This document shows positions 6,934 through 15,852 of a stretch of DNA of 20,036 bases, piece after piece. The position numbers and the translations under genes were made by a program. The notes under the pieces are model-generated. The model saw only the letters and a program-made list of their open reading frames with translations, was not told where the DNA came from and searched no databases. The DNA comes from Nitrospinota bacterium (GTDB lineage: Bacteria; Nitrospinota; Nitrospinia; JACRGO01), in NCBI GenBank assembly GCA_016212295.1, contig JACRGO010000030.1:1-20036 (forward strand), read 5' to 3'. Numbering within the stretch: position 1 is the first letter of the stretch; each line of letters starts with the position of its first letter.

Positions 6934-6954
6934 AGGTGAGGACGTGATGGGAAG

Positions 6955-6997
6955 CGGTTGAAAAACTTGCGCGGAAAACGCAAATTTCTGAACGTAA
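6955..6997 (+). repeat. 43-nt hairpin repeat, copy 1 (proC leader)
   Basis: This copy matches copy 2 (8713-8755) at 41 of 43 positions. Both start CGGTTGAAAAA, end TCTGAACGTAA and contain a central hairpin. Here the stem is AAACTTGCG / CGCAAATTT with one mismatch and a 7-nt loop. It ends 6 nt before the ATG of proC. It is REP-like: short, non-coding and palindromic. Confidence 0.85.
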
Positions 6998-7003
6998 TAA
7001 ATA

Positions 7004-7855
7004 ATGGCAATGCAGGCGGAAAAATCAATCGGCTTCCTGGGGGCCGGGAACATGGCCGAGGCCCTTATAAAAGGGACCTTGAAGGCCGGGCTCCTCCAAC
7101 CTAAAGACATCCTGGCCTCTGACGCCAAAAGGGAGCGGCTTAAGGAACTGAAGGAGTGGTATAAAATATCCACTTACCCCCGAAACACCGAAGTCGCGCT
7201 CAAGGCTGACATAATAGTACTTGCCGTTAAGCCACAAGTGGTCCGGGAGGTATTGGACGAGGTGGCGCCTATGGTGGACGAATCGAAGCTCGTCATCTCC
7301 GTTGCCGCCGGGGTCCCTCTTTCCGTGCTTTCCTCTCTTTTAGGGCAGGGAAAAAACAAGCGTCCGAAGATTGTTAGGGCCATGCCCAACACCCCGGCCC
7401 TGGTCCAACAAGGCGCGACCGCCCTGGCCGCGGGCGACAACGCCTCCGAAGGGGACTTGAAGACGGCCCTGAATATTTTTAACTCGGTGGGAAAGACCGT
7501 GGTGGTGGCCGAGGCGCTCATGGACGCCGTGACCGGCCTGAGCGGCAGCGGTCCCGCCTACATTTGCGCCATGGTGGAGGCCCTTTCCGACGCTGGAGTG
7601 AAGATGGGCCTTTCCAGGGAAGTGTCCTATAAATTGTCGTTGCAGACCCTGCTCGGCACGGCCAGGCTTTTGGAGGAGACCGGCAAGCAGCCCTCGGAAT
7701 TAAAGGAGATGGTGACCTCTCCAGGGGGCACGACCATATTCGGACTTCACGCGCTGGAGAAGGGGAAGTTCAAGGACACGATCATGAACGCGGTGGAGTC
7801 CGCCACTGCCAGGGCCAGGGAGCTCGGCCGGGAAGCGGAAATAAAAAAATATTGA
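7004..7855 (+). CDS. proC: Pyrroline-5-carboxylate reductase
   Basis: ProC makes L-proline by NAD(P)H-dependent reduction of 1-pyrroline-5-carboxylate in the cytoplasm, the last step of proline synthesis. The 283-aa length is normal. The Rossmann dinucleotide-binding loop GFLGAGNMAEAL is at about 10-21, 'AVKPQ' at 74-78, 'RAMPNTP' at 125-131, and the P5CR signature with 'GLSGSGPAY' (178-186) and 'SPGGTT' (239-244) follows. The start is either ATG 7004 or ATG 7010. Neither has a Shine-Dalgarno, because a 43-nt hairpin repeat fills the leader up to 6 nt before the ATG. A better ribosome-binding site (AGGTGAGG) lies at 6934-6941, ahead of a short in-frame reading MGSG-stop. yggT and divIVA follow in the same direction, an arrangement conserved in many bacteria. 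Confidence 0.97.
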   Translation: MAMQAEKSIGFLGAGNMAEALIKGTLKAGLLQPKDILASDAKRERLKELKEWYKISTYPRNTEVALKADIIVLAVKPQVVREVLDEVAPMVDESKLVISVAAGVPLSVLSSLLGQGKNKRPKIVRAMPNTPALVQQGATALAAGDNASEGDLKTALNIFNSVGKTVVVAEALMDAVTGLSGSGPAYICAMVEALSDAGVKMGLSREVSYKLSLQTLLGTARLLEETGKQPSELKEMVTSPGGTTIFGLHALEKGKFKDTIMNAVESATARARELGREAEIKKY

Positions 7856-7869
7856 AATTTAAAAACCTT

Positions 7870-7950
7870 TTCACCGTGGAGATCGCAAAGACACAGAGAA
7901 AAGAAGGAACCGCAGCGCCTTTGTGGCTTTGTGTGAGACATTCTTTGTAA
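7870..7950. repeat. Imperfect palindromic intergenic repeat
   Basis: The gap between proC and yggT holds an imperfect inverted repeat. CAAAGACACAGAG near 7884-7896 faces CTTTGTGGCTTTGTGTGAG near 7919-7937. It resembles in style (purine-rich 'GGAGA...GCA...GACACAGAG' arms) the large element at 1357-1549 but is shorter and more diverged. It sits in what is probably one transcription unit. Confidence 0.45.
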
Positions 7951-7971
7951 AAAAAATATCAAGGAGAAAAA

Positions 7972-8271
7972 ATGTACATTCTGGGAAATTTCATAGCCGC
8001 CTTGGCCACTGTCGTGGACATGGCCCTGACGCTTGTCATGTGGATGGTCATCATCCGCGCCCTGCTGTCGTGGGTCAGCCCTGACCCCTACAATCCAATA
8101 GTGCGGGCGCTTAACCAACTCACTGACCCCTTGTTCTACAAGGTGAAACGATACCTTCCGGTCTCCGGGGGCGGAATCGACTTTTCGCCGATTGTCATAT
8201 TAATGGCCATAATCTTCCTCCAGAGCTTTCTTGTCAGGACCTTGAAGGACATCGCCATGCAACTCCAGTAA
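7972..8271 (+). CDS. yggT: YggT family membrane protein
   Basis: This 99-aa protein has two membrane helices (about 10-34 and 71-90). Between them is the family's hallmark amphipathic stretch 'WVSPDPYNPIVRALNQLTDP' (34-53). YggT/YlmG proteins sit in the cytoplasmic membrane and are linked to cell division, envelope integrity or osmotic tolerance, but their molecular action is not settled. It is preceded by a good ribosome-binding site (AAGGAG about 6 nt before the ATG). It lies between proC and divIVA, the common yggT neighbourhood that supports a division or envelope role. It follows proC by 116 nt of repeat-containing spacer, and divIVA begins 12 nt after its stop. Confidence 0.93.
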   Translation: MYILGNFIAALATVVDMALTLVMWMVIIRALLSWVSPDPYNPIVRALNQLTDPLFYKVKRYLPVSGGGIDFSPIVILMAIIFLQSFLVRTLKDIAMQLQ

Positions 8272-8283
8272 AGGGACCTTGCC

Positions 8284-8694
8284 ATGCGTTTTACATCTTT
8301 AGAGATAAAGCAGCAGAAATTCAAGAAGAAGATGATGGGACTGGACCCTGGGGAAGTAGAGGTGTTCGTCGAGATGGTGGCGGACGACTTCGAGGAGTTC
8401 GAGAATGAAAACAAATCCTTGAGGAGCAAGATCAGGGATTGCAAGCTGGAGATAGAGGCCATGCAAAGGTCGGAGGCGGAGTTGAAAAAATCGCTGGAGG
8501 AAAAGGAGGCCGCGTCCCTTTCCACCGGTGAAGCGGAGCAGAAGGGCCGTGAAATTATTTTAAAGGCCAAGCAAAAGGCAAGGGAGATCAAGGAAATCGC
8601 CATGAGCGAGGCCATGTCCATTGAGAGGGAGATCAACAAGCTCCGGGCCTTGAAAAAGGAGCTTGAAGGAGGAGATGACCTCGATCTCGGCTGA
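8284..8694 (+). CDS. divIVA: DivIVA-family coiled-coil protein
   Basis: The 136-aa protein opens with a DivIVA-type N-terminus: 'TSLEIKQQKFKKKMMGLDPGEVEVFVEMVADDFEEF' in pattern, where the short membrane-binding lead is followed by the 'G-x-x-x-x-EV-x-x-F' motif at about 19-29. Almost everything after residue 35 is heptad-like, charged coiled coil (ENENKSLRSKIRDCKLEIEA and on to 'EREINKLRALKKELEGG'). DivIVA homologues bind curved membrane at poles and septa and recruit partners. Outside Gram-positives the role is less clear. It starts 12 nt after yggT and the two are surely co-transcribed. It is shorter than Firmicute DivIVA, with the C-terminal tail reduced to 'DDLDLG'. Confidence 0.88.
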   Translation: MRFTSLEIKQQKFKKKMMGLDPGEVEVFVEMVADDFEEFENENKSLRSKIRDCKLEIEAMQRSEAELKKSLEEKEAASLSTGEAEQKGREIILKAKQKAREIKEIAMSEAMSIEREINKLRALKKELEGGDDLDLG

Positions 8695-8712
8695 CATGCG
8701 CGCTCCAAGAAA

Positions 8713-8755
8713 CGGTTGAAAAATTTGCGCGGACAACGCAAATTTCTGAACGTAA
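8713..8755 (+). repeat. 43-nt hairpin repeat, copy 2 (before the Uma2 gene)
   Basis: This is the second copy of the element at 6955-6997 (41/43 identical). Here the stem is perfect: AAATTTGCG (8721-8729 region) pairs with CGCAAATTT around the 7-nt loop CGGACAA. It begins 18 nt after the divIVA stop and ends 11 nt before the ATG of the Uma2 gene. Confidence 0.85.
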
Positions 8756-8766
8756 CAATATAGACC

Positions 8767-9315
8767 ATGAAAAACATCAAGATCGATTATGTTCCAAAAT
8801 ACACATATTCCGAATACGTGAACTGGGAAGGCCGGTGGGAACTGATCCAGGGCGTCCCCCACGCCATGACTCCCCTGCCCACTATAGAGCACCAAAAGGC
8901 CAGCGGGAACATTCACCTGGAGCTCCAGCGCGGCCTGAAAAATTGCAAGAAATGCGCTCCCCTTCTCCCTGTTGATTGGAAGATAGACGAGGAGACCGTT
9001 TTGCAGCCAGACAACATGGTGGTCTGCGGAGAAATCAGCGGGAAATATCTGGCCCATGCGCCTGTCATGATATTTGAAATAATATCCCCTTCCACGGAAA
9101 TGAAGGACAGGCAAATCAAATACCGCATTTATGAAGCGGAAAAGGTGAAATACTACATCCTCGTGGACGTCTCTTCCCGAACGGCCCGAATTTTTGAACT
9201 TTGCGCCGGGGCATACAAAAAAATAAAAGAGACTGGAAATGACCCAATTTCCTTTGACCTGGGAGAATGCTCCTTTGATTTCGATTTTGGAAGAATCTGG
9301 CGCGCGTTGCCCTAA
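8767..9315 (+). CDS. Uma2 family (DUF820) endonuclease-like protein
   Basis: The 182-aa protein has the Uma2/DUF820 layout, a PD-(D/E)XK nuclease-like fold. The start is 'YTYSEYVNWEGRWELIQGVPHAMTP'-like, with the conserved 'E-L-I-x-G' at 25-29. The catalytic-type motifs follow: 'LQPDNMVV' (D82), 'FEIISPST' (E104-x-I) and 'DRQIKYRIYEAEKVKYYILVD' in pattern, with K118. The predicted active-site residues are all present, so it looks intact. These proteins are abundant in cyanobacteria and environmental bacteria, often in multiple copies near mobile DNA. Their natural substrate is not established. It follows divIVA by 72 nt that contain the hairpin repeat, and has no ribosome-binding site. Downstream is decayed accessory DNA. 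Confidence 0.88.
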   Translation: MKNIKIDYVPKYTYSEYVNWEGRWELIQGVPHAMTPLPTIEHQKASGNIHLELQRGLKNCKKCAPLLPVDWKIDEETVLQPDNMVVCGEISGKYLAHAPVMIFEIISPSTEMKDRQIKYRIYEAEKVKYYILVDVSSRTARIFELCAGAYKKIKETGNDPISFDLGECSFDFDFGRIWRALP

Positions 9316-15708: not shown

Positions 15709-15852
15709 TAAAGTGAACTAAAGTGACTGAAGTTAAAAATAAAAAATTGCTTTTATACCGCAACTTTAGCTCACTTTAAACTTTAGCTCACTTTAAACTT
15801 TAGTCACTTTAAACTTACACCTTCAAACTTTAACCCACTTTATTCACTTTAT
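15709..15852. repeat. Degenerate 17-nt tandem repeat with inverted half-copy
   Basis: From 15762 the unit AACTTTAGCTCACTTTA (17 nt) occurs twice exactly. A 16-nt copy (AACTTTAGTCACTTTA), a degenerate 14-nt unit, another 17-nt copy (AACTTTAACCCACTTTA) and a partial TTCACTTTA follow. At 15709-15734 the same motif appears inverted (TAAAGTGAACTAAAGTGACT and AGTT). The block fills the whole space between the divergent permease and exbB genes, so it sits in both 5' regions. Confidence 0.8.

Follow-up and report, generated by a model that had tools for sequence, protein, structure and literature searches.

A probably mobile palindromic repeat behind paired hairpins upstream of proC and a Uma2-family gene in a Nitrospinota genome

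Two near-identical hairpins that lie just before two genes in a 20,036-nt stretch of a Nitrospinota bacterium (the window) are probably remnants of the right end of a mobile palindrome of ~209 nt that is non-autonomous and specific to this lineage; a HUH/Y1-type enzyme would move it in trans and hairpin-driven deletion would trim it. The mobility of this repeat is supported by its dispersed, sharp-ended copies with no detected target duplication and by its absence at the proC locus of a congener. Overall, the element looks like a parasitic repeat, not a gene switch.

Window copies and the full-length repeat

As the sequence-only reading of the window had described, 43-nt copies at 6955-6997 and 8713-8755 share one orientation and differ at only two positions. 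Their stem, AAATTTGCG-N7-CGCAAATTT, pairs throughout in the 8713 copy but carries a C.A mismatch in the 6955 copy; the two copies stop 6 nt before ATG 7004 and 11 nt before ATG 8767, respectively, and no Shine–Dalgarno (SD)-like motif is present at either start. That reading had missed that the repeat extends further, over about 6950-7005 and 8690-8762 (with a 50-nt match of 92% between the copies), and had not listed a third piece on the minus strand (144-235), which consists of a left end (CATAGCGCGGCATGACCGCAACTAAAATAAATTT..., read on that strand) and an inverted internal right-end copy. The first remnant (6950-7005, plus strand) has its core hairpin at 6963-6987 and a tail, AACGTAATAAATA, that runs into ATG 7004, and proC (pyrroline-5-carboxylate reductase, P5CR family; 7004-7855, plus strand; Pfam P5CR_dimer) starts flush with the right end. 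The second (8690-8762, plus strand) still contains some of the inner REP-like arm (GACATGCGCGCTCC) and occupies the space between the divIVA stop codon (8692-8694) and the start of the Uma2-family gene (8767-9315, plus strand; Pfam Uma2), 4 nt past the right end. The congener has a different gene after divIVA, which by eye we take to be DUF167/YggU; in the window, the region following divIVA (8695-9315) holds the Uma2-family gene, and the repeat sits at the junction. Two further observations concern the window itself: its opening bases are similar to the end of contig C7 (L185), which may mean that the assembly is interrupted by repeats at this point, and an intergenic stretch at 15762-15842 holds direct repeats of AACTTTAGCTCACTTTA.

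Alignment of the flanks of the copies revealed that the 43-nt hairpin represents just one end, the right, of the ~209-nt repeat. Intact copies are sharp-ended, running from [C]ATAGCGCGGCATG... on the left, where the element sequence begins CATAGCGCGG..., to ...CTGAACGTAATAATATA on the right, and the boundaries are abrupt in all 37 copies having both ends (left ...N[C]ATAGCG; right AACGTAATAATATA followed directly by N). The left part reads [C]ATA-GCGCGGCATGnCCGCAACC... and forms a long imperfect hairpin from two inverted REP-like arms, the loop of which contains the right end in inverted copy; the right part is a short hairpin followed by the fixed tail. Nearly all intact copies have ATAG as their left head, and the inner arm is headed by GGAG in one subfamily and by ATAG in the other. 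Intact copies have no terminal inverted repeats, their left and right ends being unrelated, and no target duplication was detected in the 37 two-ended copies (mean best match 3.08 versus 3.02 in shuffled pairings). The middle is modular and often deleted or replaced, which yields left-only, right-only or minimal copies; both plus-strand window copies belong to the right-end-only class, and minimal copies (CATAGCG-CGGAAAACGCAAATTTCTGAACGTAATAATATA; L191 and L196) keep both ends and little else. Some copies carry a second palindrome, GCCTGTCTGCGTGCGACGCACAGGCAGGC, within the loop of the right hairpin.

In the source genome (3.74 Mb in 237 contigs, fragmented and 90.5% complete), the 37-nt core gave 65 matches at ≤3 mismatches and a reversed control pattern none, which places the window pair far beyond chance. 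A 210-nt query recovered about 38 near-full copies (81–97% identity) and many partial ones. Right-end matches numbered 161, internal inverted copies included, with none for controls; left-end matches numbered 123, divided 62/61 between the strands. Another dispersed repeat, AAATTCCCCTCCTTGGAGGGGTGGCGCGAAGCGCCGGGGTGGGTTAT (L025, L082, L106 and L129), sometimes adjoins the element.

Searches of other genomes returned very little. No exact match to the 22-nt right-end core was present in 84,980 GTDB species genomes or IMG/VR, no second genome matched the 37-nt core among 60 searched, one congener included, and the full element had no match in plasmids or phages. In searches of 60 and 77 genomes, that congener (G001) carried a single related copy, of the variant with the second palindrome, and a few short left-end lookalikes occurred in G004, G009 and G001. 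Those of the type CATAGCGCGGCATAGCCGCAAC (L174, L176 and L178 in G009; L173 in G004) occur in genomes of another family of the same class, and the rest of the element is absent there. At the syntenic proC-yggT-divIVA locus of the congener, the element is missing upstream of proC. A promoter-like stretch, CTTGACTTCAA..., lies just upstream and is common to both proC loci; judged by this putative promoter, the window element is probably inside the transcribed proC leader.

Folding, covariation and placement at start codons

A single strand of the full element folds into the long left hairpin followed by the short right one, with a DNA energy of -55.8 kcal/mol (z -9.5). The RNA fold of the right hairpin was not stronger than that of shuffled sequence (z -0.6 and -0.3). 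Compensatory changes in this stem, which the earlier reading had suggested looking for, did not exceed the shuffled level across 58 distinct right-end cores (1 pair versus 0.9), and the stem is unpaired at one position in 26 of them. Covariation was instead found in the left hairpin, which is largely missing from the window copies: among 28 full copies, 10 pairs in helix 1 had changed on both sides, and the whole structure showed 30 both-sides-changed cells versus 14.7 after shuffling, a value reached by none of 500 shuffles. Long palindromes can covary through selection for folding or through template-switch correction, and either requires a folded strand. With a right stem that does not covary beside a left hairpin that does, a mobile palindrome is favoured over a conserved RNA switch.

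We then compared the distance of the copies to start codons with chance, using home-made gene calls at the loci around copies and a null in which the insertion is dropped uniformly within the observed gap and avoidance of promoter hits is not separated out. Of 59 right ends, 22 lay ≤15 nt upstream of a start, with about 6 expected. The excess was seen in right-end-only (11/28; 2.6 expected), intact (6/17; 2.7 expected) and partial copies (5/14; 0.9 expected). At the same loci, stop codons showed no excess, with some copies adjoining gene stops, and other repeats showed no start-codon excess, at low power. The shared placement and orientation emphasized by the earlier reading thus fared differently: placement at start codons is non-random, but intact copies have no orientation preference (17/28 face a start), and right-end-only copies have a modest one (28/36; P = 0.03).

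About ten right ends lie 0–5 nt from a start that has no SD, and the genes concerned include ones that we take, by eye, to encode LpxA, HypA and RadC. Left ends are flush with the starts of divergent genes in seven intact or near-intact copies, two of these genes presumably being uvrA and ruvB, to judge by the amino termini of their products. An SD-like motif precedes 54% of genes without a nearby element and 39% of genes with one; with only about half of the element-free genes having such a motif, SD-independent starts seem common in this genome. Among its SD-less genes, no leaderless promoter signature stood out clearly. In these data the placement at start codons is real, and it is explained only in part. 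Flush insertion at authentic housekeeping starts with no SD left offers a natural test of the extent to which SD-independent translation tolerates leader disruption.

Mobilization and competing explanations

The mechanism that we favour would involve a transposase acting on single strands (HUH/Y1-type, IS200/IS605- or RAYT-like) that is supplied in trans and recognizes the folded ends. Judged from the flanks (the left junction reads CATA, the right end TATA), insertion would take place on the 3′ side of a CATA-like tetranucleotide, and hairpin-driven deletion would then trim the copies. A CATA target alone would make start codons of the opposite strand likely sites, since there it reads TATG and is common at starts; selection tolerating insertions between promoter and start codon may add to this, and effects on translation would be side effects.

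A REP-associated transposase bounded by these repeats, for which the earlier reading had proposed a search, was not found in the fragmented, 90.5% complete assembly. Two Y1_Tnp genes are present. One of them, L061 (1465-2456; C179:6898-7889), encodes a 317-aa TIRYT-type Y1 transposase. Its 5′ end is of the GGGGTCAAACC type, and an element right end begins 10 nt past its stop codon. This adjacency could mean that the repeats are simply the REPs of a resident transposase, as in an ordinary REPtron, a reading we hold to be improbable: homologues of L061 across the class have their own ends on both sides (GGGGTCAAGTCTTGAC / GGGGTCAAG type), which match the GGGGWSAS inverted repeats of the TIRYT class (PMC3733652), and L061 itself retains a 5′ copy of its own family's end, with no element left end upstream. 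One such adjacency would arise by chance at roughly 5%, by our estimate. L061 is therefore unsupported as the native partner. The second gene, L062 (C211:14616-14861), is flanked by different palindromes (CGTTACGGATTTGCAATCCGTAACG type) and is likely a RAYT with its own REPs.

Other candidates were considered and set aside. A search for an autonomous copy, in which left and right ends would enclose a transposase, turned up only two distant same-strand end pairs apart from those in the repeat cluster of C49: one on C50 (2.5 kb) and one on C24 (4.5 kb). The C50 pair encloses integrase-like ORFs and no transposase. These two ORFs (L082 698-1859, minus strand), with a left-end-only copy on one side and a right-end-only copy on the other, look to us like an integron-type tyrosine integrase broken in two; they suggested integron attC sites, but inspection of the element by eye showed no core boxes. 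A remnant of an IS91-type (Y2_Tnp) transposase on C194 (L132 600-1150) lies ~60 nt from a short element copy, and this one short fragment was judged coincidental. Given that L061 and L062 have other ends and that the IS91-type fragment looks coincidental, the partner transposase may have been lost or may be encoded in sequence that the assembly does not cover.

The placement data also bear on three readings in which the position at start codons has a more direct meaning. If the right hairpin were a cis-acting RNA element that regulates translation from 5′ leaders, its excess just upstream of starts, the start-facing bias of right-end-only copies and its location at proC between the ATG and the promoter-like region common to the congener would all follow. 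We nevertheless regard this as very unlikely, since the stem neither covaries nor folds better as RNA than shuffled sequence, no Rfam family matched, left ends that have no right hairpin also abut the starts of divergent genes, copies also adjoin gene stops, and the genes downstream have no function in common. The data thus do not support regulation by the right hairpin. Of the two possibilities raised in the sequence-only reading, the mobile REP-like family is borne out by the many dispersed, sharp-ended copies and the empty congener proC locus, and the translation-controlling RNA element is disfavoured by the stem, the weak RNA fold and the intact copies that face either way.

Alternatively, the fixed 33-nt right end (CGGA[CA]A-N17-TAATAATATA), which is retained in every class of right-end copy, might be a mobile start module that acts as an outwardly directed promoter or a leader for SD-free initiation, with flush copies kept because they drive the gene. 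The SD-less flush starts, among them the authentic ones of lpxA, hypA, radC and proC, would fit, yet we have little confidence in this reading: the -35-like hexamer fits the usual consensus poorly and its fifth base varies, the left-end-flush genes uvrA and ruvB have no such sequence, the SD-less genes of the genome lack a leaderless signature, proC already has the upstream promoter-like stretch, and recognition by a transposase predicts end conservation equally well. It is also conceivable, if unlikely, that integration homes in on start codons, guided either by the ATG complement within the CATA junction or by single strands at gene starts, and that the ends have replaced the ribosome-binding regions of housekeeping genes such as lpxA, ruvB and uvrA and now act as initiation leaders. 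We retain the trans-mobilized palindrome with trimmed right ends as the preferred explanation.

Relation to known repeat families

We regard the repeat as a new orphan REPIN/BOX-like miniature element with a mechanism that we infer. REPINs are REP doublets that form hairpins (Bertels and Rainey 2011, PMC3116915). Like them, the element has two inverted REP-like arms (GCGCGGCATGnCCGCAACC) that with a spacer make one long hairpin in single-stranded DNA or RNA, is extragenic and dispersed in many copies, leaves singlets as remnants and has palindromic arms that covary. It differs in its fixed ~50-nt right end with a hairpin of its own after the doublet and in the clustering of its ends at start codons. 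Its heads read ATAG or GGAG; those of REPs mobilized by a RAYT read GTAG, or GGAG. Because neither of the two Y1_Tnp genes in the 90.5% complete genome is a RAYT flanked by the same repeats, we do not claim membership of the RAYT-REP system, even if the element may work like a REPIN or an IS200/IS605-derived miniature. The TIRYT/TIRtron class is represented in the genome by L061, with an element right end beside it, but its GGGGWSAS inverted repeats are unrelated to the element ends (PMC3733652).

BOX elements of Streptococcus pneumoniae are likewise modular miniature intergenic repeats with constant left and right modules and a variable middle. They are unrelated in sequence and over-represented between convergent genes (PMC3049150), in contrast to the present element, which clusters just upstream of start codons and has a palindromic, REP-like middle. 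The element has neither the terminal inverted repeats nor the target-site duplication of MITEs derived from DDE transposons, and its right stem shows neither the covariation nor the known-family match of a cis-regulatory RNA family.

Structurally, it agrees with IS200/IS605 (HUH Y1) elements in having subterminal hairpins and fixed junctions (CATA left, TATA right) and no inverted ends or duplication. IS200/IS605-derived palindrome-associated elements (PATEs) show the same lack of terminal inverted repeats and detectable target duplication, hairpins near both ends and a conserved short sequence at the left junction; they differ in that an autonomous parent IS with matching ends was not found for our element in the genome, and its target and guide sequences are deduced. 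A palindromic repeat that is so plentiful, almost confined to one genus and lacking a dedicated transposase sharpens the question of who mobilizes orphan REP-like elements, and among known systems REPINs, BOX elements and PATEs each share part of its architecture.
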